From a virus: a stretch of 48,924 nucleotides of DNA. Positions 33,909 through 48,924 of the stretch are shown here, one piece after another (positions within the stretch are counted from its first letter, which is position 1; every line of letters begins with the position of its first letter). The position numbers and the translations under genes are program-made. The DNA lies in IMG/VR virus record IMGVR_UViG_3300009184_000065, positions 1-48,924 of that record; one strand, written 5' to 3'. The notes below the pieces were generated by a model. It did no database searches, had not been told where the DNA came from, and saw only the letters and a list, made by a program, of their open reading frames with translations.

Positions 33909-35165
33909 TTACGCCTCTTCTATTGCTTTTACTCTCGCTGTAAGCTCTTGTACTGCTTTGATTAATGGAGATATAAACTCTTCATATCTTAAAGCCTGAG
34001 TATTGTCTTCTTGATTAACCCAACCACCAAAATCTGCAACTCCAGCTTCATCTAGAGCTTGCTTTACTTCTTGTGCAATTAATCCGTAGTGTGTTCTATT
34101 ACCAGCTACTGGTGTCTCAGAATGGCTTCCGTCTTCATTTGGAGTATAAGTAATCCCTCCAACATTGTATTTATAGCTTACTGGATTTAAAGAATTAATA
34201 AAGTCTAGGCCTAAGTCAGACTCAGCAATTGTATTCTTTGCATTTATATCTGATGAAACAATAGTGGAAGTTTGAATAAACATATTGCCTGATGCTATAA
34301 CAGATGCTGCTTTAATTGTTCCTGTAAAAAAAGCATCTTTCCAAGACTTGGCTGTACCCGTACCTGCTGCTGCATCTTTTCCTATACTCCATGTTCCAGA
34401 TCCAAGTGGATACCAATGTGAGTTAACTCCGTCTGATACTCCGTTAGGAATATTTAAACTAATAACTTGATTTATTGGATCAAGGACTGCGTTAGCGCCG
34501 TCTGCTCCAGGTGCTCCGTCTGCTCCTGGTGCTCCTGGTGCTCCAGCTGATCCTGTTGCTCCTGTTGCTCCACGGGGAATTGTAAAGTTTAATACAACTG
34601 CGCTAGATGTGCCAGAGTTTGTTACAGATGCATTTGTTCCTGCATTTCCAGTTGATGTGGATCCAACAGATATTGTTGCCGCTGCTGGGCCTGTAGCTCC
34701 TGTAGCGCCTGTAGCTCCTGTAGCGCCTGTAGCTCCTGTATCACCTTTTGGAATTGTAAATGTTAAAGTTTGTGATGGTATTCCGTTGGAAATTGTTTGT
34801 TGAGAAATTGTTACATTAGCTTGTGTTCCAGCTAGCCCAGTAATTGTTGGATTTACTGCAATTACATTTGCTGGTCCTGGACCACCTAGTACGCCATCTA
34901 CGCCTCTGGGAATTTTAAAATTAAATCTTGCTGCTGTAGCTGTTCCTACATTGATGACTTGTGGCATTGAGCCTGGAGCAAGAACATCAACTGATTCAAC
35001 CACTATGGTAGCGGCAGTTCCTGGATTTCCTTGGTCACCCTTTAAATCTGGATTTGATGAAACCCATGCAGAAATGTCGTCTGCAAGGTTAAGCAGATCT
35101 CTAGGGACATCTGGTGAGTCTGTATATGTTGGGAAACGCCAACCGTTTATACCTGTAGTAGCCAT
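33909..35165 (-). CDS. Collagen-like tail fiber with S74 self-cleaving domain
   Basis: A 418-residue fiber protein. Gly-X-Y repeats lie at residues 43-51 (GDQGNPGTA), 141-160 (mostly GAT) and 199-224 (GAPGAPGADGAPGADGANA). Between them are beta-rich IPRG/IPKG segments. Residues about 303-418 form an intramolecular chaperone (S74) domain: SSDINAKNTI, LIAQEVKQALDEAG and a terminal helix. Collagen repeats should form a triple-helical shaft; the GAP triplets place Pro in the Y position, which collagen prolyl 4-hydroxylases modify. The gene lies 7 nt downstream of the oxygenase cluster, which makes it the best placed substrate candidate. Confidence 0.82.
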   Translation of the reverse strand: MATTGINGWRFPTYTDSPDVPRDLLNLADDISAWVSSNPDLKGDQGNPGTAATIVVESVDVLAPGSMPQVINVGTATAARFNFKIPRGVDGVLGGPGPANVIAVNPTITGLAGTQANVTISQQTISNGIPSQTLTFTIPKGDTGATGATGATGATGATGPAAATISVGSTSTGNAGTNASVTNSGTSSAVVLNFTIPRGATGATGSAGAPGAPGADGAPGADGANAVLDPINQVISLNIPNGVSDGVNSHWYPLGSGTWSIGKDAAAGTGTAKSWKDAFFTGTIKAASVIASGNMFIQTSTIVSSDINAKNTIAESDLGLDFINSLNPVSYKYNVGGITYTPNEDGSHSETPVAGNRTHYGLIAQEVKQALDEAGVADFGGWVNQEDNTQALRYEEFISPLIKAVQELTARVKAIEEA

Positions 35166-35172
35166 TTTTTAA

Positions 35173-35802
35173 TTATACCACCTTGTCAGTTTTACGCCAG
35201 AATCCTGGGCACATATATTTTACACCACTGGTTACTGGTAAAGACTCGTGATAGTACGGCTCTACCGAAGGGAATATTACTATGCTTCCAGCCTTTGGCT
35301 TTATTTTTACGCCTTGTTCTTTAAAATAAATTTCTCCGCCTTCGTAATCATCGTTTAGATAAAGTACAACAGAAATATTTGGATTGTCTCCATTGCTATA
35401 ATCATCAACATGTGGGCCCATTGACTTACCAGTGGAGTATTTGCTTATTGATAATGGCATTAGGGAGCCGATGTCCATACTATGCATGTTGCCATAGTTT
35501 TCTGAAGAGCCTACAATTGCATTTTTTAAAATATTATTAATTCTTCTTATGTCTGGGTGCGTGTCTGTATCTACATTGTTGCTAAATCTTTTTTGATAAC
35601 CAAATACATACTCTGTATCTCCGCTTGCCGCCCATTCTTTCCACGCAGGGATACTGGTGTTTTCATTTAGGCCTCCGTCAGAAATCTCTATTAAATTAAT
35701 TAAGTAGTCGGGATCAGTAATAACATTTTCATAGTAATGTATCTTCCCGTATTGGGTTAGATTTACGCTATCCATTTCTTCCATTTTTTTCGTCTGCTTC
35801 AT
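35173..35802 (-). CDS. 2OG-Fe(II) oxygenase A (prolyl-hydroxylase-like)
   Basis: A jelly-roll dioxygenase of 209 residues. The iron triad is visible: H131-x-D133 in GPHVDD and H185 in YYHESLPV; K195 (SGVKY) should bind the C5 carboxylate of 2-oxoglutarate, as in prolyl 4-hydroxylases. The motif LYLNDDYEGGEIYF (about 147-160) is shared by all seven enzymes of this cluster. Residues AGSIVIFPS mark the strand before the distal His. This is the shortest member and the last in the cluster, overlapping oxygenase B by about 35 nt and lying just before the collagen-like fiber gene. Start uncertain: ATGs at 35802, 35784 and 35775 are all in frame. Confidence 0.88.
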   Translation of the reverse strand: MKQTKKMEEMDSVNLTQYGKIHYYENVITDPDYLINLIEISDGGLNENTSIPAWKEWAASGDTEYVFGYQKRFSNNVDTDTHPDIRRINNILKNAIVGSSENYGNMHSMDIGSLMPLSISKYSTGKSMGPHVDDYSNGDNPNISVVLYLNDDYEGGEIYFKEQGVKIKPKAGSIVIFPSVEPYYHESLPVTSGVKYMCPGFWRKTDKVV

Positions 35803-36619
35803 CTCTTGTATTTTTACCAGATTTTAGATCAGCTATCTGTCTTTCTCTATCCATCTGTCTCCATAGCTCTTCGCCATACTTATCTTTGTTTGCATGCCAT
35901 GCTTCCGAGCCTGGATAGTCATACATATAAAAACTTCTAATAAAATATTTTATTCCATTTGTTACAGTCTTTACTCCGTGATAGTATGGTGCTCTTGATG
36001 GAAAAATTGTTACATCGCCAAATTCTGGTTGGTACATATGTTTTACATACTCTGCATTTGGATCATTTGATTCATCTTGGAATATCTTAAAGGATACTTG
36101 TCCTCCATCATAATCATGATTTAAATACATGCAGCATGTTACAAAAAATTTAAAGCCTGGCTCTTCGGTTTTTTCTTGCTGAAAATCTGTGTGGTGTCCC
36201 ATTACTGATCCAGTTGGTTCAAAACTCTCATGAGGTATATACTTGAGTAGTGTTGCGGTTGTGTGGCTTATCGGAGAGCCTTCTGGTGGAGTCTCTCCAG
36301 TAAGCTCAAAATAGTGCTTGGTCATATTATAAAAAACATCTTCTATGTAGTTATAGAAAAATTTAAGCTTTTCATCTGTGACTTCGTCAAAATTAATATC
36401 TTGTTTAAATTCATTATAGGGCAGAACTCCTGGAACATTGTGTGGTCTAGTAGCTTTAACTGGAAAGTTTGTCTGCTTGCCAAATGTGTACCAGTCTACC
36501 CACATATTATCAATAGACTTAATGTGTTCAAAACATTCCATAAAATAATCATTATTGAAGACATTTTTGTAAACAATAATCTTTGGAGCTATCTTATAAA
36601 AATCTGTACCCTCAAGCAT
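35768..36619 (-). CDS. 2OG-Fe(II) oxygenase B
   Basis: A 283-residue enzyme with H143-T-D145 (GHHTDF), H214 (YYHGVKTV) and K224 (NGIKY), plus MYLNHDYDGGQVSF in place of the usual DDYEGGE motif. It shares a C-terminal extension with oxygenase D (GSEAWHANKDKYGE, then a helix ending in ELWRQMDRER) not present in the others, and an N-terminal WYTFG segment. B and D are therefore close paralogs. I chose the ATG at 36619 (MLEGTDFYK) because AAAGGAAA lies 5 nt upstream; an earlier in-frame ATG at 36715 lies inside oxygenase C and adds a basic tail without support. Overlaps C by 8 nt. The enzyme has a complete triad and should be active. Confidence 0.87.
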   Translation of the reverse strand: MLEGTDFYKIAPKIIVYKNVFNNDYFMECFEHIKSIDNMWVDWYTFGKQTNFPVKATRPHNVPGVLPYNEFKQDINFDEVTDEKLKFFYNYIEDVFYNMTKHYFELTGETPPEGSPISHTTATLLKYIPHESFEPTGSVMGHHTDFQQEKTEEPGFKFFVTCCMYLNHDYDGGQVSFKIFQDESNDPNAEYVKHMYQPEFGDVTIFPSRAPYYHGVKTVTNGIKYFIRSFYMYDYPGSEAWHANKDKYGEELWRQMDRERQIADLKSGKNTRDEADEKNGRNG

Positions 36620-37376
36620 ATTTGTTTCCTTTATCCCATTCTTCTTTCTGCTTTGCCTGTTCAATTCTAACTTGCTTTTCTTCTTCTTCCCATCGATCAA
36701 GTGTCTCTTGATCATAGACTAGTTCTTCATAGTCCCAGAACGATACCATGGTGTATCTTGTTCCAGCGGTTATTTCTGCTACTCCGTGTATATTCTCGTA
36801 CCCGCCTGGGAATACGTAGTAGGAATATGCGTTTGGCTTAAATGATAAATAGGTTTTCATTTCATTATCTTTGTCGCAAAAATAAAGGTCTCCGCCTTCA
36901 TAGTCGCTATTTAAATAAAGTATGCCTACATATTTATTAATCTCAAAAGCATTTGGCTTTCCTGAATTATCTGAGTTATCTGAGTGTGGACTTGCAAAGC
37001 CTCCAACGTCCCATTTTTGTGCATGAGATGTATTTGCTCTAACCTTTCTATCAAAAACAGTTTCAACTGCTTCTTTGTACTTGTCTTTTAGCTTATCAAA
37101 AAAACCATCTGGCAATCCAAACTTAGCCATAGTTTCTGAGTCTGTCTTAATTCCTTTGCCCGACGATCCGTAGAATGCAATGTCTCCCCACTCTACGTCA
37201 CAGTTTTCAAAAAAGTTAATCATCTTTGTGACTATTTCTGGATCAATAAAATCTGGTATCTCTACAACAGTATTACGAGTTACGCCCAGGACTCCACGCT
37301 TATTATCTGGGACCTCATCATCTTGAAGGTATATAAATTTATTTTTATCTATAACATCAATCATTCCATCTATCAT
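36612..37376 (-). CDS. 2OG-Fe(II) oxygenase C
   Basis: A 254-residue enzyme with H131-S-D133 (SPHSDNSD), H197 (NIHGVAEI) and R207 (GTRYTMVSFW); here Arg replaces Lys as the 2-oxoglutarate anchor. The core motif reads LYLNSDYEGGDLYF. A C-terminal Glu/Lys-rich helix (about 222-254) extends beyond the jelly roll. It lies in the middle of the overlapping run: its ATG overlaps the stop of D (TAATG), and its end overlaps the start of B by 8 nt. By its Arg anchor and HGV motif it groups with oxygenase E. Confidence 0.87.
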   Translation of the reverse strand: MIDGMIDVIDKNKFIYLQDDEVPDNKRGVLGVTRNTVVEIPDFIDPEIVTKMINFFENCDVEWGDIAFYGSSGKGIKTDSETMAKFGLPDGFFDKLKDKYKEAVETVFDRKVRANTSHAQKWDVGGFASPHSDNSDNSGKPNAFEINKYVGILYLNSDYEGGDLYFCDKDNEMKTYLSFKPNAYSYYVFPGGYENIHGVAEITAGTRYTMVSFWDYEELVYDQETLDRWEEEEKQVRIEQAKQKEEWDKGNKYA

Positions 37377-38251
37377 TAGTATTTACCGTTGTCCCTTCCA
37401 AAGAATTCATGAACCGACTCTCCATCAATCTGTGCATTAAAAATTTCTTTTTTAAATCTATCCTTTTCCATTTGATCCCAGACATCTTCGCCATACTTTG
37501 CTTTATTGGCATGCCACTCATCTGAACCCTTATCTTCAAATTCCCAGAAGCATCTAATCATATATCTGCGTGGGCCAAATGACTTTCTAACTCCGTGCAT
37601 GTATGGATCTCTTGAAGGGAAAACAATAACGTCTCCAGCTTGTGGCTTATGAGAAACATAATGATCATTAATCTTAAAGCATATCTCTCCGCCCTCATAA
37701 TCATCATTTAAATAAAATGTCGTTGTTAGTCCAAACTTTACTCCTGGATTTTCTTTTAGGGGAACAACAAAATCTGTGTGGTAGTTCATCGCATAATGTT
37801 CTGAAATTCCAGCATCATTTTCATAGATATTAATAGATGCTGAGCCTTTACTATAATTAGGAAGCGATACATCTGGATTATTTTTAAGGTAGTGATTAGT
37901 TACCTTATAAAATATGTTTCCTACTTCTTCAGTTAAATCCGATTGACTTGAAACTGGGCCCCAAGATCTTGCCCACTTGTATTGTTCCTCTGTTGGAAAT
38001 TTTTCAAAATTTATTCTTTGCTCCATTAAAGAAAGCATAGACCCAAAGGTATACCATTTCTCCCAGCCTTCTTGTTTTTTAGCTGACTCAAGAAATCCAT
38101 TTATATCCTTAAATAAATTTCTGTAGACATAAACCTTGGGATAAATTTCTTCAAACTTTATTTCTTCTTCTGGTCTCTGCTTTTTAATTTTATGAGTGTT
38201 ATCGCAGTAAGGATATGTTTGAGATCTTCCACAAATACATTGTTTGGTCAT
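37376..38251 (-). CDS. 2OG-Fe(II) oxygenase D with N-terminal CDGSH-type iron-sulfur motif
   Basis: A 291-residue fusion. Residues 5-20 read CICGRSQTYPYCDNTH, fitting the CDGSH pattern (C-x-C-x2-S/T-x3-P-x-C-D-G-x-H) at every position except G18, which is N. The ligands C5, C7, C16 and H20 could hold a [2Fe-2S] cluster. The rest is an oxygenase with H158-T-D160 (YHTDFV), H219 (YMHGVRKS) and R229 (GPRRY), the motif FYLNDDYEGGEICF, and the same C-terminal extension as B (GSDEWHANKAKYGE). The iron-sulfur unit might pass electrons to the active site or sense redox state. ATGA overlap with E upstream, TAATG with C downstream. Confidence 0.87.
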   Translation of the reverse strand: MTKQCICGRSQTYPYCDNTHKIKKQRPEEEIKFEEIYPKVYVYRNLFKDINGFLESAKKQEGWEKWYTFGSMLSLMEQRINFEKFPTEEQYKWARSWGPVSSQSDLTEEVGNIFYKVTNHYLKNNPDVSLPNYSKGSASINIYENDAGISEHYAMNYHTDFVVPLKENPGVKFGLTTTFYLNDDYEGGEICFKINDHYVSHKPQAGDVIVFPSRDPYMHGVRKSFGPRRYMIRCFWEFEDKGSDEWHANKAKYGEDVWDQMEKDRFKKEIFNAQIDGESVHEFFGRDNGKY

Positions 38252-38928
38252 GGCTGCTTATCTCCTGTATGCTTCAATATGGTCCAGAAGAAAGGAATAA
38301 CGTAACGAATTCCACTTGTTATTTCTTTTACTCCATGGATATAGTTCATATCGCCTGGGAAAAAGTATCCTGCTGCAGGCTTAGGCTTAAACTCTATGCC
38401 TTGATTTGGGAAATAAAGTTCGCCACCCTCATAATCATCGTTTAAATAAAACAATCCTGAAAGATCATAGTAAGGGAAATCATTTGCTTTACCAGCGTCT
38501 GGACCTGTGTGCAATTCTTTATCTGCATGAGGCTCTTGTCTATACCCTGGAAGCCACCTAACAATTGCTGGACTTGTTGGAAGTGCATCAACATTAAAAT
38601 ATTCATCAACCTCTATCTTAAGTCTAGCTACTATTTTTTCAATTACTAAAGATATTTCTGGATTAATTTTATCTAAGATCGGTCTTGATGCAACACGATT
38701 ATCCCAGTAGGTTGAGTCGTAAATTACTGTTCCATTTTCATTGTAATGTGTCTCTGTTATGTCCCACTCTTCAATAGATCGAGCTGCTTCCAAAAGAAAC
38801 TTGTGCTCTTCTGAAGTCATTATGTTTTCTCTAGATTGAATATTGTCTGGAGAGTTTCCAAAGAAACCTGAAGGAGTTATTGAAACTCTTTCATCCCATC
38901 CCCAATTACTGGCTGCTTTTTTATCCAT
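38248..38928 (-). CDS. 2OG-Fe(II) oxygenase E
   Basis: A 226-residue enzyme with H134-A-D136 (EPHADKEL), H198 (YIHGVKEI) and R208 (SGIRY), and the motif FYLNDDYEGGELYF. The N-terminus contains NWGWDERVSI, with no further domain. I chose the ATG at 38928: it lies 6 nt after TGG-TATAAT, a pattern for leaderless transcripts, while the earlier in-frame start at 38970 lies inside the preceding gene. It therefore may begin a second transcript within the cluster (E, D, C, B, A). The end overlaps D by ATGA. Confidence 0.85.
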   Translation of the reverse strand: MDKKAASNWGWDERVSITPSGFFGNSPDNIQSRENIMTSEEHKFLLEAARSIEEWDITETHYNENGTVIYDSTYWDNRVASRPILDKINPEISLVIEKIVARLKIEVDEYFNVDALPTSPAIVRWLPGYRQEPHADKELHTGPDAGKANDFPYYDLSGLFYLNDDYEGGELYFPNQGIEFKPKPAAGYFFPGDMNYIHGVKEITSGIRYVIPFFWTILKHTGDKQP

Positions 38929-38934
38929 ATATTT

Positions 38935-38943
38935 ATTATACCA
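38935..38943 (-). promoter_or_regulatory. Putative leaderless promoter inside the oxygenase cluster
   Basis: On the minus strand TGG-TATAAT is followed by 6 nt (AAATAT) and the ATG of oxygenase E. The -10 box is perfect; no good -35 is present, which fits an extended -10 promoter. It sits in the 17-nt gap between two genes. Confidence 0.55.
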
Positions 38944-38945
38944 TC

Positions 38946-39674
38946 CTAGGAGTAGGTCCTTTTGGACCAAACTTCGTTTTTATAGATACCGCCGTCTGGC
39001 TTTCTATATTTTGCTGAATTTTCCATATTTTTTTTCTGTAGATTAGATGCTTTTTCAATTACGACTTCATGTTGCCAATCTTCTCTTTTAAAGGGAAGCA
39101 TTTGTGCATAAGGAGTGCCTGCTGGCAAAATGCCAGAGAATCCCTTTACTAAAAAGAACGGCATTGAGCCTGGCAAATTAACATTGTCATTATCAATGAT
39201 TCCTGAAGTAGTAAGGAATGGCAATTCAAATCTATTAAAAGGTTGTGAATACAATACGCTATAACCTGTAGGAGTTTCTATAGCCCAATCTGGAAACCAC
39301 GCAAAATGTGTTTCATGATATCCCTGTGGATGTTTAAACTGTGGCATAGGCGGTCTTACAGAGCAAAAATCTTCATATCTCTTATCAGTAATTTTTGCTG
39401 AGATAGCGCCAAAATCTCCTTCAAAAAACTCTATGTCGCATGGAGTTTTTAGCGTATACCCTGTGCCCATTATGTCAAAGATTGCTGGACATGCTTTCCA
39501 AGTAGGCATCTTACCACCCCCTGGATTTTCCCAGTATTCTCCGTCTGGCTTTTTTGCAAATCTGTCAGCTTTTCTATACCAGTCTGGAATACTTTTAATA
39601 ATTGGTTCTGGTTTTGATTTACTGTCTTTGTTAAGCCATGGTCTATTTGATACGAATTTAATCGTTAGTGCCAC
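38946..39674 (-). CDS. Probable jelly-roll/cupin-type protein 1 in oxygenase cluster
   Basis: A 242-residue protein of a family I cannot name with certainty; it resembles uncharacterised phage proteins (DUF6065-like) often near oxygenase genes. It aligns by eye with the next protein upstream: both have a Cys in a central strand (TWKACPAIFDIMGTGYTL here), an aromatic-rich region and a strand ending in AG-x(4)-Q/A (ILPAGTPYAQMLPF). The beta-rich pattern suggests a jelly roll, but no HxD...H triad appears, so it may be a non-catalytic partner. GTG start with GGGAAA upstream, overlapping the previous gene by 17 nt. Confidence 0.6.
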   Translation of the reverse strand: MALTIKFVSNRPWLNKDSKSKPEPIIKSIPDWYRKADRFAKKPDGEYWENPGGGKMPTWKACPAIFDIMGTGYTLKTPCDIEFFEGDFGAISAKITDKRYEDFCSVRPPMPQFKHPQGYHETHFAWFPDWAIETPTGYSVLYSQPFNRFELPFLTTSGIIDNDNVNLPGSMPFFLVKGFSGILPAGTPYAQMLPFKREDWQHEVVIEKASNLQKKNMENSAKYRKPDGGIYKNEVWSKRTYS

Positions 39675-40389
39675 ACTGTTTCCCGTCTTTAACGTATACA
39701 GTCTTAAGCTTTAATGCTTTAACTTCATGCTCTCCGACAGATTCGCCTTTTTCATTTATTGCATCTCTATACCAATCAGTCCACTCACCTAAAGCAGTTT
39801 TTACTGCAGAAGCATTTCCATATGCTTGTGCTGCTTGCTCAGCAACTGGATTGCTAACATAATCATCAACGTTTATAGTAGAATCTTTTAGCTGTCCTAA
39901 TGACAGAGGTATAATTGCTGCAATTACTTGTCCTGCTTTTATAGTAATTTCTTTGTTAGCAGTTAAAGCTTTTATTGCAAGAGGCAATGGGTGTGGATAA
40001 AAAGAAGTGGATATGACAGATGAAATAACTTCAAAATCTTTATTAAAGAAATTTGGAGGGTTTACAGCCAACAAGCTTATATTTTTATCGGTGACAAATT
40101 TTAAGTTTGTATTAAAGCTTAAAGTTGATTGTCCCCTGCCTGTATAGCAAAGACCTTCTCCTTCTAGTATCTTTACATGATCTCCAGAGTGGTCATTGAC
40201 TCCATCCCAAATAAACTTAATATCAGTTTTTGCAGAAATGCCCCAGCCTATAGTGTTTGCAAGGGTTACTGGAAAACAATGGTATGCGTGTTTGTCAAAG
40301 GTCGCATCCATCCAGTCTCTTACTACTGATAGAGGTTCTACAACAAAAGCGGTTGGAGAAGTTCTATAGGCATTTATTTCATTACTCAT
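39658..40389 (-). CDS. Probable jelly-roll/cupin-type protein 2 in oxygenase cluster
   Basis: A 243-residue relative of the preceding protein. Matching parts are YHCFPVTLANTIGWGIS with CPAIFDIMGTGY, and ITIKAGQVIAAIIPLSL with ILPAGTPYAQMLPF. It contains several His and Asp residues (WDGVNDHSGDHVKI) but not in the spacing of a 2OG-oxygenase triad. Located between oxygenase F (TAATG overlap upstream) and jelly-roll protein 1 (17-nt overlap), so it is translated together with the oxygenases. It may bind or present the substrate, or carry out a different metal-dependent reaction. Confidence 0.6.
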   Translation of the reverse strand: MSNEINAYRTSPTAFVVEPLSVVRDWMDATFDKHAYHCFPVTLANTIGWGISAKTDIKFIWDGVNDHSGDHVKILEGEGLCYTGRGQSTLSFNTNLKFVTDKNISLLAVNPPNFFNKDFEVISSVISTSFYPHPLPLAIKALTANKEITIKAGQVIAAIIPLSLGQLKDSTINVDDYVSNPVAEQAAQAYGNASAVKTALGEWTDWYRDAINEKGESVGEHEVKALKLKTVYVKDGKQCGTND

Positions 40390-41126
40390 TAGTCACCTGT
40401 CTCAATAAACATTTCTTGTGTATGGAATTTGGCGCTATAGTCTAGCATTGTTACTATTGAATATTTAGTTCCTGATACAACCTTTTTAGCTTGATGAGGA
40501 TACATAAAGTTTGAAGGGAAAATAAACAGGTCTCCTGCTTGTGGCTTAATGTTTAGATTTTGCAGTCTAAAGTAAAGCTCTCCACCCTCATAGTCGTCAT
40601 TGAAATATCCTACAAGTGAAACTGTACAGTTGTATGAATAGCCATGATCGTGGTGCTCCATAAAGTGATTTCCAGGCTCGTATCTAATAAAGTTAAATGC
40701 TTCCCAGTATCTTAAATTATGAATGTTATATGTTCTACAATAGTCACGAACTGCTTGGTATTGAGGGTCATAGCACTCTTGCCAAATTTCTCTCAGCTTA
40801 TTGTCTGCTTCTTTTTCTCCATAGATATCTGTCTTCTTGTATTTAAAGTCAACACAATCCCTGTAGTCTGGCATTCTTTCTTGGTAGCCCACGTAAGCTG
40901 GCATCCACTCATACTGATTATCTTTTGCTGCAAGGATTTCTTCAAGTCTTTCTGGGATGTTTCCACCTGTTGGCAATACATTTCTATAGCACCAGATTCC
41001 GTTTCCTAAATCAATTTTTTCTGTCCAGGTCTGCTTGATTGGTCTGTGTTGCTCTGCTTCCCATTCGCTAATATACTTTTGGTCTTGCAGCTTTTTAATT
41101 TCTTGAGCTGGGTCTATCGTTTCCAT
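40389..41126 (-). CDS. 2OG-Fe(II) oxygenase F
   Basis: A 245-residue enzyme with H158-H-D160 (MEHHDHGY), H211 (YPHQAKKV) and K221 (SGTKY), and the motif GYFNDDYEGGELYF. The His-rich HHDH stretch makes the first iron ligand slightly ambiguous, but the H-x-D spacing is right. It shares the segment RDCVDFKY and a NFIRYEPG/NFVKYEGEG region with oxygenase G, so the two arose by duplication. Strong ribosome site AAGGAG 5 nt before the ATG. Second gene of the cluster, 8 nt after G. Confidence 0.87.
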   Translation of the reverse strand: METIDPAQEIKKLQDQKYISEWEAEQHRPIKQTWTEKIDLGNGIWCYRNVLPTGGNIPERLEEILAAKDNQYEWMPAYVGYQERMPDYRDCVDFKYKKTDIYGEKEADNKLREIWQECYDPQYQAVRDYCRTYNIHNLRYWEAFNFIRYEPGNHFMEHHDHGYSYNCTVSLVGYFNDDYEGGELYFRLQNLNIKPQAGDLFIFPSNFMYPHQAKKVVSGTKYSIVTMLDYSAKFHTQEMFIETGD

Positions 41127-41134
41127 TTTTCTCC

Positions 41135-41881
41135 TTAGTACGGTGAAGATGCTGCTGCAGCAGCATTTTGAATATGTCCCTGGTGGGCCATATCATTTAA
41201 ATCCATCATTACAACAACGCAATACTTTGTTCCAGATTTTATTGGAAGCGATGCGTGTTCATATATATAATTAGACGGGAAGATTGCTATGTCCCCTGGC
41301 TTTGGCTTTATTATTTTATTATCCATTCTTGGATAGTATATCTCTCCGCCTTCATAATCATCGTTTAAGTAAATTACTGCTGACACAGCTGCTTTATACA
41401 TTGGGCCATCATCTGCATGAATTTTAAACTCTTTGCCTTCGCCTTCATACTTTACAAAATTAAACACCTCGTAGTAGGTTACATTAATTCCCCAGTATCT
41501 ACAATAATGATCAATACAAGATTTAAGCTTTTTATAAATTTCATCATACACTTGCCATAGCTCAGCATTTTCTTCATTCTGTTTACCGCCAAGTGTGCTG
41601 TAGTTCATCTTAAAATCAACACAGTCTCTAGCCTTTTTAATTGGCTGATCTGAATTTGTTACACGGGCTTCGTTCCAATGATACTTAGTTCCTGGCTTTA
41701 GATTCTTTTCTAGTGTATCTATGTACCACTGTATTCTTGTTTGGTCTAATGCATTGTTGTATAGGTCTAAGCCTAACGCCTCATTGGTTACTTTAATGTC
41801 CCCAAACATTACGTCTGCCTTCCTATTTGAAGAAGTTTCAGACCTGTCTTTTTCAAACCAGTCATCTTGTATATTAGTCAT
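41135..41881 (-). CDS. 2OG-Fe(II) oxygenase G, first gene of the cluster
   Basis: A 248-residue enzyme with H155-A-D157 (KIHADDGP), H209 (YEHASLPI) and K219 (SGTKY), and the motif IYLNDDYEGGEIYY. KPGDIAIFPSNYIY precedes the distal His. The C-terminus ends in an Ala-rich tail (AAAAASSPY). It starts the oxygenase cluster just downstream of a strong terminator and is likely translated from a leaderless mRNA, because TATACT ends 6 nt before the ATG and no ribosome site is present. Sister paralog of oxygenase F. Confidence 0.88.
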   Translation of the reverse strand: MTNIQDDWFEKDRSETSSNRKADVMFGDIKVTNEALGLDLYNNALDQTRIQWYIDTLEKNLKPGTKYHWNEARVTNSDQPIKKARDCVDFKMNYSTLGGKQNEENAELWQVYDEIYKKLKSCIDHYCRYWGINVTYYEVFNFVKYEGEGKEFKIHADDGPMYKAAVSAVIYLNDDYEGGEIYYPRMDNKIIKPKPGDIAIFPSNYIYEHASLPIKSGTKYCVVVMMDLNDMAHQGHIQNAAAAASSPY

Positions 41882-41973: not shown

Positions 41974-43323
41974 TTAAGATATTACTATGTAGTTTCCTGC
42001 TATGAACCATTGTGATGGCTCGCATCTTATGTCATAGACATCCTTTGCTGGAAGCTTTTCAATAGTGTCAACTGTCTCAAATATTATCTCGCAAGATTCT
42101 ATTCTTAGGGTTACAAGTATGTCTCCAACTTGAACCTGTCCAGTCTCCTTATATTTAATTAGTTCGCCTTCTTTTACAAAGATTGGCTGTCCTTCTGAGA
42201 ATAGTGTATCAGAGCCGTTGAACTTAATTAAATCTTTTTGACTTAATTCATGCTTGACAACAGTTGTCTCGCTAAGTGTTACCTTATTTCTTAGAACTAT
42301 ATCTGAAGTCATATCTCCATTGTTTAGTTCAGATGGATCAATTGTGAGAAGTACATCTCCAACCTTTACATCTTTTGCTAAGATATATCCATTTGAAGTT
42401 AACAGCTGTGAGTCTTCTTCAATACAAAACTTAGACTTAAAGTAAGGTCCAAACCCTGGTGGGAAGAACGGTGGGAAGAACGGTCCGAACCCTGGTGGGA
42501 AGAACGGTCCAAACCCAGGCGGGAAGAACGGTGGGAAGAATGGGAAGTACGGGAAGAACGGTGGGAAGTATGGTGGGAAGAATGGGAAGTACGGGAAGTA
42601 CGGTGGGAAGTATGGTGGGAAGAATGGGAAGTACGGGAAGTACGGTGGGAAGTATGGTGGGAAGAACGGGAAGAATGGGAAGAACGGTGGGAAGAATGGG
42701 AAGTACGGTGGGAAGTATGGTGCGGTTGTAGTAACGCTATTTGAAGAAGCTGAATAAGGGCTATTACCATTTGCATTCTTTGCAAGAACTTGATAAGTCT
42801 GCGCTGTTCCAGCCGTTTCATTAATTGTTGTTGATGTTACTCCTGCAGCAAGATCATAAGTTGGTCCATCTGAGGACTTAAGAGTATATCCAGTATTTGG
42901 AGTTCCTCCTAAATTAGATGGTGCTGACCAAGAAACTACGTCTTGATTAGCATTTGGAGAAGATGCTGTTGGCGCTGATGGCGCATTTGGCAAAGTAGTT
43001 GGAGTAGCTGCAGAGGAAGTAGCTGGTAAGCTATTTCCTGCTGCATTTGATGCTACTACAGTAAATGTATAAGATGTTCCTCCATTTAAGCCAGGAAAGG
43101 AAAATGAAGTTCCTGTGGTGCTTTGTGTTGTTGTAACTGGAGTTGATGTAATTGTGTAAAGTGTTGCTGGTGGAGATGCAGCTGGTAATTCCCAAGTTAG
43201 GTTTACTGATCCATTTCCGCTTGCTCCGCCATTTACGGCAGTAGCAGCTAAAGATGTGACTGCATTTGGCTCTAGGAAGTTGTCCTGGGCCGATGATTGA
43301 ATACCTACTCTTTTATTTGCCAT
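41974..43323 (-). CDS. Fibronectin-III / aromatic-Pro repeat / Hint protein
   Basis: A 449-residue protein with four parts. Two fibronectin-III domains (about 18-108 and 112-199; SYTFTVVASNAAGNS, TYQVLAKNANGNS). A tract made only of Phe, Pro, Tyr and some Gly (201-296, units like PPYFP and YFPFFP). A C-terminal Hint domain (300-449) beginning C300-IEEDSQLL with KVGDVLLTI, and ending VYDIRC, QWFIAGNYIVIS. C300 is the usual nucleophile for the N-S acyl shift. The block-B TxxH appears as SxxQ (FSEGQPIF), and no C-terminal His-Asn is present, so only N-side processing is plausible. Likely a virion adhesion protein. A ribosome site, AGGAGA, precedes the ATG. Confidence 0.8.
   Translation of the reverse strand: MANKRVGIQSSAQDNFLEPNAVTSLAATAVNGGASGNGSVNLTWELPAASPPATLYTITSTPVTTTQSTTGTSFSFPGLNGGTSYTFTVVASNAAGNSLPATSSAATPTTLPNAPSAPTASSPNANQDVVSWSAPSNLGGTPNTGYTLKSSDGPTYDLAAGVTSTTINETAGTAQTYQVLAKNANGNSPYSASSNSVTTTAPYFPPYFPFFPPFFPFFPFFPPYFPPYFPYFPFFPPYFPPYFPYFPFFPPYFPPFFPYFPFFPPFFPPGFGPFFPPGFGPFFPPFFPPGFGPYFKSKFCIEEDSQLLTSNGYILAKDVKVGDVLLTIDPSELNNGDMTSDIVLRNKVTLSETTVVKHELSQKDLIKFNGSDTLFSEGQPIFVKEGELIKYKETGQVQVGDILVTLRIESCEIIFETVDTIEKLPAKDVYDIRCEPSQWFIAGNYIVIS
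42436..42723 (-). repeat. Aromatic-proline coding repeat (Phe/Pro/Tyr/Gly only)
   Basis: About 290 bp of imperfect tandem units, 9-42 bp long (TTCCCACC, TACTTCCC and TTCTTCCC blocks on the minus strand), encoding about 95 residues of Phe-Pro with Tyr and, at the Hint side, GFG. Units vary in third positions, so the repeat is kept at protein level. Such tracts may form extended poly-Pro-like rods. Confidence 0.85.
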
Positions 43324-43347: not shown

Positions 43348-45660
43348 TTAAGCTGTTAGGTCTCCGATAAGGACCCATGTATTTGCTGCTCTCTTAAACA
43401 ATGTTGCCGAAGAGTAACGTGCTCTTAGCTTTAATCCTGGAGTTCCATTTACTGTTGTTCCTGAACCAGCTGTAATTGTTACGTTTCCTGTATTTGCTCT
43501 AAATATATCAAGTGATGTTCCTACTGCATATGTTCGTGCATTTGTACCATCTACTGGAACAACAATTACTACATCTCCTGTAGAATCTACATCTAGCCAT
43601 CCATCGTGGTAGTCTGCATCATTAATTCCAAAGCTTGCTGTTTTATTAGTGACTGTTGTATATGAAGCAACCTTACCTGCAATTGCTGTTGTTACTGTTG
43701 AAGCAAAGTTTGCATCATCATTTAAAGCTGCTGCAAGTTCATCAAGTGTATTTAGTGCTGCTGGAGCACCTGCAATTACTGCTGTAACTTCTGCAAGAGC
43801 TTCAGACTTAGCTGTTGCAATTGCTGCTGCTTGAGCTGTTGAAACTGGCTTAGCTGAGTCTGCTGTATTATCAACATTGCCTAGTCCAACATGTGCTTTT
43901 GTAACACCCGATACAGTTCCTGTAAATGTTGGATCTGCAAGTGGTGCTTTTAGCGCTACATTTGAAATTGTTGCATATGTAGATGCTGCTGTTGCTGTTG
44001 CAAGCTTTGTATCGATTTGTGCCTGAATTCCTGAAGTAACACCATCTACGTAAGCAATTTCTGTTGCTGAAACATTTCCTATTGATGTTGTTGCTGGAAG
44101 AACAACTGTTCCTGTAAATGTAGGTGATGCTTTTGGAGCTAAGTTTGTATTAATTGATGTTATTGATGTATTGATTGCAGTAATGTCAGAAGTCTGTGTA
44201 GCATTAACTCCTTGAATTGCTGTAATTTGACTACCCTTAGTAGCAAGATCTGTTGTATGTGTGGCAAGAAGAGTATCTTGATCTGTATTTTTTGTTTCAA
44301 TGGCTGCGATTGCTGCTGATTGGGTTCCATTGACTGTTGTTAAATCGTTTATGGCAGTAGTCTGTGTAACATTAATTGCCTTGATAGCTGTAATGTCTGT
44401 TTCAGCTGTTGTTAGTCTTGGGCCATATAGTTGAACTGCATCTATATCTGCTTCGGCTGAATCAAGTCTTGCATCTAAGCTGTCAAGTGCTGAAGTGTTG
44501 TTGGTAAAGTTGGTTGTTGTTGATGAAATAAATGTATCTAAATTAGACTTTTGAGCAACTGTTTCAAAATCTACAATTATTTGATCATTGTAATTTGTTA
44601 AGCCAGTTCCTACTGTTACTGGTATTGCTCCTGTAAACTGTGTGAAGTTAAGAGAATCTGTTCCAAGCTGGAAGATTTCTCCTGCTCTAGAGCCCTCTGT
44701 TAGAAGAACATATCCGTCACGAGCATTTGCAGTTCCTTCTTGTGTAAATGTAAAGAGGCCTTCTCTGACTTCTCCGTCTACGCTGTTATCTGAATCTGTT
44801 GCACGAGTTAAAACTGCTGCTGCTGAAGATCCACCTGCATTTGTTACTGTATAAATACCATTTTGCTTTGCATCTGTTTGGTTCTTAAGAAGAACTCTAT
44901 CTCCTGCGGCTACTGTAATGCCATCAATTGAAAGTGCTCCATTTGCGGAAGCTGTTAGTCTTTCTCCAACTCCATTTCCACCTGATGCATCTGCTGTTCC
45001 AGCTGCTCTAGTTGAAGCAAAGTTTGCTGTTGATGCTACACGAACTGAACCCTTAATTTGAAGTCCTGAACTTAATGAAGCAACGTCAAGCTTTGTTGCC
45101 CAGAATGACTCATTAATTTGATTGTCTGGTATCAATGCGCTATTGTTAAGTGAAGCTACTCCACCTGCAACACCACGATCTGAAACTGGAAGATAGTCTG
45201 TATCTACTGTATTTGCTAAACCTGCAACTGCATCTGTTACATATGTCTTATTAGCAATTACTGAAGTATCTACTGCGACTGCAAATGTGTTTCCTGTATC
45301 GTTGTATACTTTAGTAATACCATTACCCTCAACAAATGCTGAGTTAATTGCATCTTGTGCAAGTTCTGTAAAGTATGAATTGTCTACTGATATTGTTATG
45401 GTGTTTGCACCATCATTGTAAGTCTTTGTTAAACCTGAACCCATTGTAAGGGCATTGTTAACTGCATCTTGTGAAATTTCTGATATTGCTACGTCTGAAT
45501 TATTAGCATATGCAAGGGCGGTCCATGTTGCGGTGCCGTTACCAAACTTAAATAAGTTTGTGTCTGACTCAACACCCATTTCTCCTGCTGCCAAAATTGG
45601 ATTTACTGAGGTCCACTGTGAGGCGGTTCCTCTTCTTACTTGAATTCTTACTGTTGACAT
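43348..45660 (-). CDS. Tail fiber protein (770 aa)
   Basis: The N-terminal ~50 residues (STVRIQVRRGTASQWTSVNP, then AGEMGVESDTNLFKFGNG) are a widespread virion-attachment module at the start of phage fiber proteins. The middle holds LKNQTDAKQNGIYTVTN, another common fiber unit, and a coiled-coil/Thr-rich shaft (about 370-530). Near 560-660 lie ATSIGNVSATEIAYVDGVTS and LDELAAALNDDANF, the latter shared with the fiber encoded at 46160. The C-terminal ~110 residues are a beta-rich domain (ADYHDGWLDVDSTGDVVIVV). Receptor binding or a shaft role is likely. AAGGGG lies 8 nt before the ATG; a promoter lies upstream. Confidence 0.78.
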   Translation of the reverse strand: MSTVRIQVRRGTASQWTSVNPILAAGEMGVESDTNLFKFGNGTATWTALAYANNSDVAISEISQDAVNNALTMGSGLTKTYNDGANTITISVDNSYFTELAQDAINSAFVEGNGITKVYNDTGNTFAVAVDTSVIANKTYVTDAVAGLANTVDTDYLPVSDRGVAGGVASLNNSALIPDNQINESFWATKLDVASLSSGLQIKGSVRVASTANFASTRAAGTADASGGNGVGERLTASANGALSIDGITVAAGDRVLLKNQTDAKQNGIYTVTNAGGSSAAAVLTRATDSDNSVDGEVREGLFTFTQEGTANARDGYVLLTEGSRAGEIFQLGTDSLNFTQFTGAIPVTVGTGLTNYNDQIIVDFETVAQKSNLDTFISSTTTNFTNNTSALDSLDARLDSAEADIDAVQLYGPRLTTAETDITAIKAINVTQTTAINDLTTVNGTQSAAIAAIETKNTDQDTLLATHTTDLATKGSQITAIQGVNATQTSDITAINTSITSINTNLAPKASPTFTGTVVLPATTSIGNVSATEIAYVDGVTSGIQAQIDTKLATATAASTYATISNVALKAPLADPTFTGTVSGVTKAHVGLGNVDNTADSAKPVSTAQAAAIATAKSEALAEVTAVIAGAPAALNTLDELAAALNDDANFASTVTTAIAGKVASYTTVTNKTASFGINDADYHDGWLDVDSTGDVVIVVPVDGTNARTYAVGTSLDIFRANTGNVTITAGSGTTVNGTPGLKLRARYSSATLFKRAANTWVLIGDLTA

Positions 45661-48180: not shown

Positions 48181-48924
48181 TTAACTAATTACAATAAATC
48201 CTTCTGCAATAAACCACTGGTTTTCTAGTGTCCTAATATCGTATACTTCTTTATCAGTATCTGTCTCTATGGAGTTAACCAAAACTTCATTTATTGTAGA
48301 GCCGTCTATTGTTAATAGCGTATCTCCAATTTTTACGGATCCCGCTTCTACCCATGTTGCAAGTCCGTCTTGTTTAATGAATATTGGCTGTCCGTAAGAG
48401 AAATACTTTTCTGTTCCGTTGAATGAAAGAACATCCTTTGTTGACATTTCAGATTTAATAACTTCAACGCCTACAAGATTTACATCTTTATTGACATTAA
48501 AGAACTTCATTGATTGATTGCCAAAGTCTGCTGCTGAAATAGAAACTAGTTTATCTCCAATTGATATATCTTTTGCTGCAACATAACCATTATTTAATGT
48601 TAGCAACCTGGTATTTGCTTCTAAACAAGATTTACTTGCTTTAAAAGTTGGGAACGTTGGGAACGTTGGGAACGTAGGGAACGTTGGGAACGTAGGGAAC
48701 GTTGGGAAAGTTGGGAAAGATGGCGCCTTAAATGATGGGAAGTAAGGGAACGTTGGGAACGTTGGGAAAGTTGGGAACGTAGGGAACGTTGGGAAAGTTG
48801 GGAAAGTAGGGAAAGATGGCGCCTTAAATGATGGGAAGTAAGGGAACGTTGGGAACGTTGGGAAAGTTGGGAACGTAGGGAACGTTGGGAAAGTTGGGAA
48901 AGTAGGGAAAGATGGCGCCTTAAA
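48181..48924 (-). CDS. Phe-Pro-Thr repeat / Hint protein, C-terminal part
   Basis: The gene enters the window from the high-coordinate edge; 247 residues are visible. The first ~95 are tandem repeats of FPT, with a spacer FKAPS and an FPYFPS end in every 32-residue unit. A Hint domain follows (about 100-247): C100-LEANTRLLTLNNGY, SIGDKLVSI, then FSYGQPIFIK and KIGDTLLTI, and a final WFIAEGFIVIS. It matches the Hint domain of the gene at 41974 over the whole length, including SxxQ in place of TxxH and the C-terminal VIS. N-terminal domains are outside the window. It is followed by a palindromic promoter region and then a virion gene, so a virion role is likely. Confidence 0.82.
   Translation of the reverse strand, partial: FKAPSFPTFPTFPTFPTFPTFPTFPTFPYFPSFKAPSFPTFPTFPTFPTFPTFPTFPTFPYFPSFKAPSFPTFPTFPTFPTFPTFPTFPTFPTFKASKSCLEANTRLLTLNNGYVAAKDISIGDKLVSISAADFGNQSMKFFNVNKDVNLVGVEVIKSEMSTKDVLSFNGTEKYFSYGQPIFIKQDGLATWVEAGSVKIGDTLLTIDGSTINEVLVNSIETDTDKEVYDIRTLENQWFIAEGFIVIS
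48650..48924 (-). repeat. 96-bp tandem repeat encoding 32-residue Phe-Pro-Thr units
   Basis: The block GGCGCC recurs at 48722, 48818 and 48914, exactly 96 bp apart, with the sequence between nearly identical. Each unit encodes FKAPS, seven FPT triplets, FPY and FPS. About three units are visible, and the array continues beyond the window. Near-identity at DNA level suggests recent expansion or frequent recombination. Confidence 0.9.

Follow-up and report, generated by a model that had tools for sequence, protein, structure and literature searches.

The window, that is, the whole stretch of 48,924 bases analyzed here, is an IMG/VR record of a virus of bacteria whose source is given only as bulk environmental DNA. 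A host search by a scan of genome contigs returned 67 pattern matches, none of them confirmed, and an Rfam search gave no match. On the minus strand at the window edge lies the 3' end of a fiber gene (48181-48924), translated as a 247-aa ORF that is open past the edge. Its product consists of three FKAPS-(FPT)n blocks followed by KASKS, then CLEANTRLLT...IVIS and the stop codon. DNA repeat analysis and translation placed the repeat tract at 48649..48924 (minus strand), with a 96-bp unit, FKAPS-(FPT)7-FPYFPS, that occurs in 2.9 copies with 96% matches and extends past the window; the two complete units are identical in DNA. An earlier sequence-only reading had described Phe-Pro-Thr repeats before a Hint domain at this site. 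The repeats are indeed present, but they are not pure, since the tract also holds FPY, FPS and FKAPS spacers. The HINT domain that follows them, supported by an AF2 model and its PDB matches, spans 48184-48636 (48181..48636 with the stop codon, minus strand).

We found the whole FPT fiber gene in five other IMG/VR contigs (L001-L005), where it encodes 1021 aa (1024 in L002) with a TTG start predicted by the ORF listing, and in L006, where the fiber has 1106 aa and the spacer is TPKGYPVSP. The complete fiber with its repeat tract can be seen at L003:3391-6456. Extending the contig through these relatives, as had been suggested along with the sequence-only reading, revealed N-terminal Ig/FN3-like and PASTA-like stretches (PASTA match of 23.9 bits, cut-off 23.2), followed by the repeats and then by the Hint domain, all in a single frame. 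This layout ruled out that the repeat belongs to a separate reading frame, and a C-extein after the Hint domain was present in none of the six contigs with the FPT fiber.

A paralogous fiber of 449 aa is encoded at 41974..43323 on the minus strand. Profile searches and alignment identified FN3 domains (44.4 bits, cut-off 25), a tract of Phe-Pro-Pro/Phe/Tyr repeats with a 42-bp unit (42458..42715, minus strand) and a HINT domain (41974..42435, minus strand; Cys1 codon 42424-42426). Among close relatives the length of this FPP fiber varies in 14-aa repeat steps (435, 449 and 491 aa), although such copy-number differences may be assembly errors. The two Hint domains share 44% identity over their length, which agrees with the description of the edge domain as clearly related to the one at 41974. 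Both were present in five of the ten contigs searched (window included) and one in the other five, mostly shorter contigs; none of the ten carried three. The Hint fiber genes are situated among tail-fiber-like genes in the tail-gene region, and a 770-aa protein with a Mtd_N domain (47.6 bits) is encoded between them at 43348-45660. Both proteins are phage fibers made of an Ig/FN3/PASTA-like N-terminal shaft, a Pro/aromatic repeat tract and a C-terminal HINT domain.

Between the FPP fibers of the window and L016, identity is 86.7% across the 203 N-terminal residues but 32.5% in the Hint domain, and the FPT fibers of L003 and L117 show 81% N-terminal identity against 31.7% in the Hint domain. 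Moreover, the Hint domain of L117 is 73.9% identical to that of the L016 FPP fiber. These identities clearly indicate that Hint modules swap between fibers. Directly behind the L016 fiber we observed a free-standing ORF of the window-type Hint (L016:5926-6465, 73.7% identity), in which GGAGG precedes the ATG as a good Shine-Dalgarno sequence. At L380:5469-5999, another free Hint ORF lies directly behind a fiber with a different Hint domain. Judging from their placement, such ORFs are perhaps a displaced or trans-acting tip module.

To address the association between repeats and Hint domains we gathered loci by Hint alignments, with search patterns that included neither Cys1 nor the repeat (76 and 80 loci). 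Among the 79 Hint-selected proteins in which the domain is preceded by 60 aa or more, 74 have a strongly periodic tract directly before it, compared with two of 21 control stretches located further upstream in the same proteins. The functional repeat-Hint unit proposed in the sequence-only reading is therefore supported by these counts. The repeat units before Hint domains are wider than Phe-Pro and include FPPFFP, FPT, FFAPPG, GFTPFG, FTPAPPD and NTPPYD. The converse is weaker, as few FP-repeat ORFs end in a Hint domain. When FP-repeat proteins were gathered by DNA pattern (with 15 loci of already counted contigs omitted), 54 of 137 ORFs stopped within 15 residues after the last FP, 27 had a Cys-rich tail, 24 a Hint domain, three an S74-like stretch and 19 another end, and ten were cut off by the end of the locus. 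Since FP ORFs end in so many ways, the Hint domain is one of several exchangeable ends. In 28 of the 54 proteins that stop shortly after the last FP the ending is FK and a stop codon, at the very site where others meet the HINT domain. The Cys-rich tails, such as GGCSGCIRSYCWQACPSCCGSCGC followed by a stop, come directly after the FP repeats (L076, L081, L107, L141, L196, L210 and others) and resemble small disulfide-knotted tips; in L189 an S74-like stretch was seen by eye directly after FPPAFK.

The region between the FP fiber and a collagen-like fiber is occupied by an array of oxygenase genes. Seven of the ten genes tested within 33909-41881, all on the minus strand, matched the 2OG-Fe(II) oxygenase family PF13640. 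Five of them are prolyl-hydroxylase-like (41135..41881, 40389..41126, 38248..38970, 36612..37376 and 35768..36715), one has a CDGSH-like N-terminus (37376..38251), and the last (35173..35802) had as its best PDB match an algal prolyl 4-hydroxylase with (Ser-Pro)5. The HxD...H ligands characteristic of 2OG-FeII_Oxy_3 are kept in all seven. A DUF6065 gene (39658-40389; 90.9 bits, cut-off 26.6) lies inside the array. Directly past the array, the collagen-like gene (33909..35165, minus strand), in which a profile search found a C-terminal Peptidase_S74 domain, encodes a third repeat fiber with a self-processing end. The best solved relatives of the oxygenase profile were prolyl 3-hydroxylase 1 (E 1.1e-13), PKHD hydroxylases and prolyl 4-hydroxylases. 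A model of the 35173..35802 product, of moderate confidence (pLDDT 67.7), matched the algal enzyme 3gze with (Ser-Pro)5 (Z 17.8), the Bacillus enzyme 5hv0 (Z 17.3) and the PBCV-1 enzyme vCPH 5c5t (Z 17.0).

We then compared 50 FP records, picked from 147 FP loci because their contigs were 15 kb or longer, with 50 control records. PF13640 was present in 49 FP records versus two controls (Fisher p ~1e-24, with records treated as independent, though they are related); ten controls were shorter than 15 kb, and both positives were among the other 40. In the FP records the oxygenases form arrays of paralogous copies, mostly 5-11, beside the FP-repeat fibers. An oxygenase ORF was found near 98 of 128 FP loci, at 1 kb or less in 84 of them, and the nearest one lay downstream in 96 of the 98. 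The local control gave 19 of 114 loci, although it includes loci with FP repeats just below the threshold and is not a clean control. An oxygenase also occurred in the locus of 70 of 90 Hint-selected domains.

These observations make it plausible that the adjacent enzymes hydroxylate the repeat tract. A serious alternative, though one we lean against, is that the oxygenases are unrelated to the fibers and are auxiliary metabolic genes travelling in the same phage lineage. A metabolic role has been published for cyanophages, where the sections of two papers available to us assign 2OG oxygenases to 2OG level, nitrogen or DNA repair (PMC3037559, PMC9602691). None of six isolate phages with 2OG oxygenases (five cyanophages, one methylophage) showed the FPP pattern, so there is no general tie between these enzymes and FP repeats, and this too speaks for the alternative. 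We used the head protease family of the window (phrog_9427) as a lineage marker, and this one family was common to 26 of the 50 FP records, strongly in 25; because at least 25 of the 50 share it, lineage inflates the association between FP repeats and oxygenases. Nevertheless, the association held in 23 of the 24 FP records without this family, several of which are fragments. The placement of the array between two repeat fibers, one collagen-like and one FP, the downstream position and short distance of the nearest oxygenase, and the close match to solved protein prolyl hydroxylases, the nearest relatives of known structure, also argue against an unrelated metabolic role.

Regarding the domain at the end of the repeats, the AF2 model of the FPT-fiber Hint domain, built with 26 relatives, reached a pLDDT of 89.2 and a pTM of 0.80. 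A PDB search with this model gave a Z of at least 5 for 91 of 1000 chains, the best being inteins, Hedgehog and BIL structures at Z 16-17.6. The top match was the NpuDnaB intein (Z 17.6, 133 residues, rmsd 2.0), and the comparison with the bacterial-intein-like and Hedgehog families suggested earlier yielded a match to both, at Z 16.3 for BIL 2lwy and Z 16.8 for Hedgehog 1at0. The HINT fold covers the whole domain in the model, and we predict this fold with confidence. On the other hand, all intein and Hint scores of the window proteins fell below the curated Pfam cut-offs: Intein_splicing and PT-HINT gave 19.8 (cut-off 35.8) and 18.5 bits (27.7) for P0001, P0002 reached 15.6 bits (35.8), and Hint_2 had no match in the window. 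The best BFVD matches of the Hint model were uncultured Caudovirales proteins named FN3, PASTA and Hint, so databases already list proteins of this type by those names.

In the structural alignment, Cys8 of the model coincides with intein residue 1, the N-terminal nucleophile (Cys codon at 48625..48627, minus strand), and Ser155, its last residue, with the last residue of the intein. Block B of inteins is usually T-x-x-H, and in most of them this His plays an important part in the N-S acyl shift. Translation and alignment showed that it is replaced by S-x-x-Q in both window Hint domains (Ser-Tyr-Gly-Gln at 48388..48399 in the FPT fiber, minus strand), which therefore lack the block-B His of B-type BIL domains. 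Both proteins end in IVIS and a stop codon at the intein's last residue; Ile-Ser (48184..48189, minus strand) stands at the site of the terminal His-Asn of inteins and A-type BIL domains, with the stop directly after it. Thus, of the features of class 1 inteins the window domains have Cys at position 1 but neither a terminal Asn, Gln or Asp nor a C-extein. The missing C-terminal splicing motif is as in B-type BIL domains, and with zero residues past the HINT domain the sterol-recognition region of Hedgehog Hog domains is lacking.

To determine which of these features are conserved, we reduced 225 Hint matches to 210 complete and 124 distinct domains, the latter comprising 90 Hint-selected domains, domains of FP-selected loci and those of two isolate phages. 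All 90 Hint-selected domains have Cys at position 1, while C-terminal His-Asn is present in 54 and missing in 36. In the 124-domain set, position 1 is Cys in 120 and Ser in three, and a single domain, that of L235, is unaligned there. In the most divergent domains (L099, L108 and L215) the nucleophile seemed to be missing, but this reading was discarded, as the alignment puts Ser at this position. His-Asn is found in 65 of the 124 domains, 58 of which stop one residue after it, as HNK, and 49 end in Ile-Ser/Ala and similar. An FK within nine residues before Cys1 precedes 47 of the 49 domains without His-Asn versus none of the 65 with it; because the former class is a single clade (support 100/97), this contrast may represent one event. 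The F, the K and the Cys are among 17 invariant columns in the alignment of eight diverse members without His-Asn, and the FK leader is kept across domains that are 38-45% identical to the first of them.

With the position-1 nucleophile kept in nearly every domain, the leader kept outside the fold and the active site variable in its C-terminal half, N-terminal chemistry is the probable mode of action: an acyl shift at the junction of repeat and Hint domain, after which the repeat end would be released or transferred. B-type BIL and Hog domains act in this manner according to the portions of two articles that we could access (PMC7765530, PMC7664689). The HINT module would act like one of these domains: Cys1 would attack the preceding peptide bond, giving a thioester at the junction between repeat and HINT domain, which water or a nearby amine would resolve to leave the repeat end as the fiber tip, the C-terminal half of splicing having presumably been lost. 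Against processing stands the Gln in block B of both window Hint domains and of 73 of the 90 Hint-selected ones (the other 17 have His). As for compensation, the accessible part of one article describes some inteins, other than the window domains, that still splice in this way without the block-B His (PMC7664689).

The main rival to this chemistry is that the HINT fold is a non-catalytic tip or cap, such as a trimer cap, a folding helper or a receptor-binding head, with a structural Cys1. The absence of both the block-B His and the C-terminal His-Asn from the window domains favors an inert cap, as do the quite different ends of other FP proteins, including the Cys-rich tails of 27 of the 137 ORFs, which look like an exchangeable head. 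The retention of Cys1 could also have another cause, for instance a disulfide. However, the nearly constant position 1 (Cys or Ser in 123 of 124 domains) fits a reaction at the bond better than an inert fold, and the same holds for the conserved FK-x-K junction, which lies outside the fold and would be unexpected for an inert cap. We thus regard the cap as possible but unlikely. An ordinary intein, which would excise itself and join two exteins, has the same fold, and related C...T-x-x-H...HN domains occur in the same setting (L149, L170 and L212), but in the window proteins the chain terminates where an intein has its last residue, lacking both the Asn and a C-extein, and we rejected this very improbable reading for them. 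Equally improbable is a pretoxin HINT domain that would release a C-terminal effector, as in polymorphic toxin systems: swappable C-terminal modules, a displaced free module behind a new one and the weak PT-HINT match recall such systems, but the genes lie among tail-fiber-like genes, and with no residue, and hence no toxin domain, beyond the HINT domain we rejected it.

Overall, the explanation we consider probable is that these are three-part phage fibers in which the HINT domain would carry out N-terminal chemistry and the repeats would be hydroxylated by the neighboring, prolyl-hydroxylase-like enzymes. A bolder and rather doubtful extension is a two-step finishing of the fiber tip, in which the phage prolyl hydroxylases would modify the Pro/aromatic shaft and the HINT domain with Gln in block B would trim or ligate it, every class ending in lysine. 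Proteins without a HINT domain would do so as FPPxFK and a stop codon, and the window class through FK-x-K ahead of the thioester. Aminolysis is said to occur in BIL domains that have no +1 nucleophile, and the lone residue following the Asn of the His-Asn class (HN-K in 58 of 65) might be joined on in this way; in the window class, alternatively, a lysine near the thioester could cross-link fiber subunits.

What is new here is the extent of this widespread modular system, its altered active site and its link to prolyl-hydroxylase-like genes. If true, the proposed mechanism would explain the many PF13640 genes of aquatic phages (up to 11 in the records searched) and the role of intein-like domains at phage fiber ends. 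It would mean that a phage fiber contains hydroxyproline and that a receptor-binding tip is shaped by HINT chemistry, neither of which our literature search found described. The passages retrieved from two papers that combine Hint domain and tail fiber (PMC3556154, PMC5259590) report terminase or ribonucleotide reductase inteins, or none. Repeat length and tip modules would be rapidly swapped parts of the fiber, and the His-Asn/Lys class could supply compact ligation domains.

Among known systems, the modeled window oxygenase shares its predicted fold and the HxD...H ligands with the prolyl 4-hydroxylases 3gze, 5hv0 and 5c5t. Self-processing C-terminal domains of phage fibers are also known from the Peptidase_S74 intramolecular chaperone of tail spikes, which has a fold unrelated to HINT and Ser chemistry. 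Also among the known systems are the isolated Erwinia phage pEa_SNUABM_1 and Alcaligenes phage Afa-NA1, whose tail proteins (L257:2014-3456 and L258:2035-3465) combine a repetitive fiber with a C-terminal HINT domain that has full splicing residues. They differ in that collagen repeats and an Ig-like domain lie ahead of the HINT domain, which has T-x-x-H and HN intact and continues into a short tail; both motifs are absent from the window Hint domains. Their annotation as virion structural and putative tail protein supports the fiber role and implies that the combination of fiber and HINT domain is not unique to FP repeats. The window Hint domains had no match in the isolate-phage collection, which gave 15 matches to a His-Asn relative. 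The A-type BIL/HINT-HN fiber ends (L212, L183 and L236) share with the window domains the position after Pro/aromatic repeats and Cys1, but they keep His-Asn, nearly always as HNK and a stop, which the window domains do not.

The Hedgehog Hog domain 1at0 has in common with the window domains the HINT fold, the N-terminal Cys, the lack of a C-terminal Asn and a C-terminal place in the protein, from where it processes the preceding part, as is predicted for the window Hint domains. The latter differ in that they have no sterol-recognition region, lack the block-B His and belong to a bacterial virus. With B-type BIL domains, which cleave at their N-terminus according to the part of a review available to us (PMC7765530), they share the HINT fold, the N-terminal Cys, the missing C-terminal motif and an occurrence in variable modular proteins. 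They are set apart by Gln for His in block B, their position at the extreme C-terminus of phage repeat fibers, the FK-x-K junction and Pfam scores under the cut-off, and because of the missing block-B His we have not filed them as B-type BIL domains. Our overall judgment is that of a modular repeat fiber whose C-terminal domain is B-type-BIL-like and has probably retained the ability to form the N-terminal thioester.
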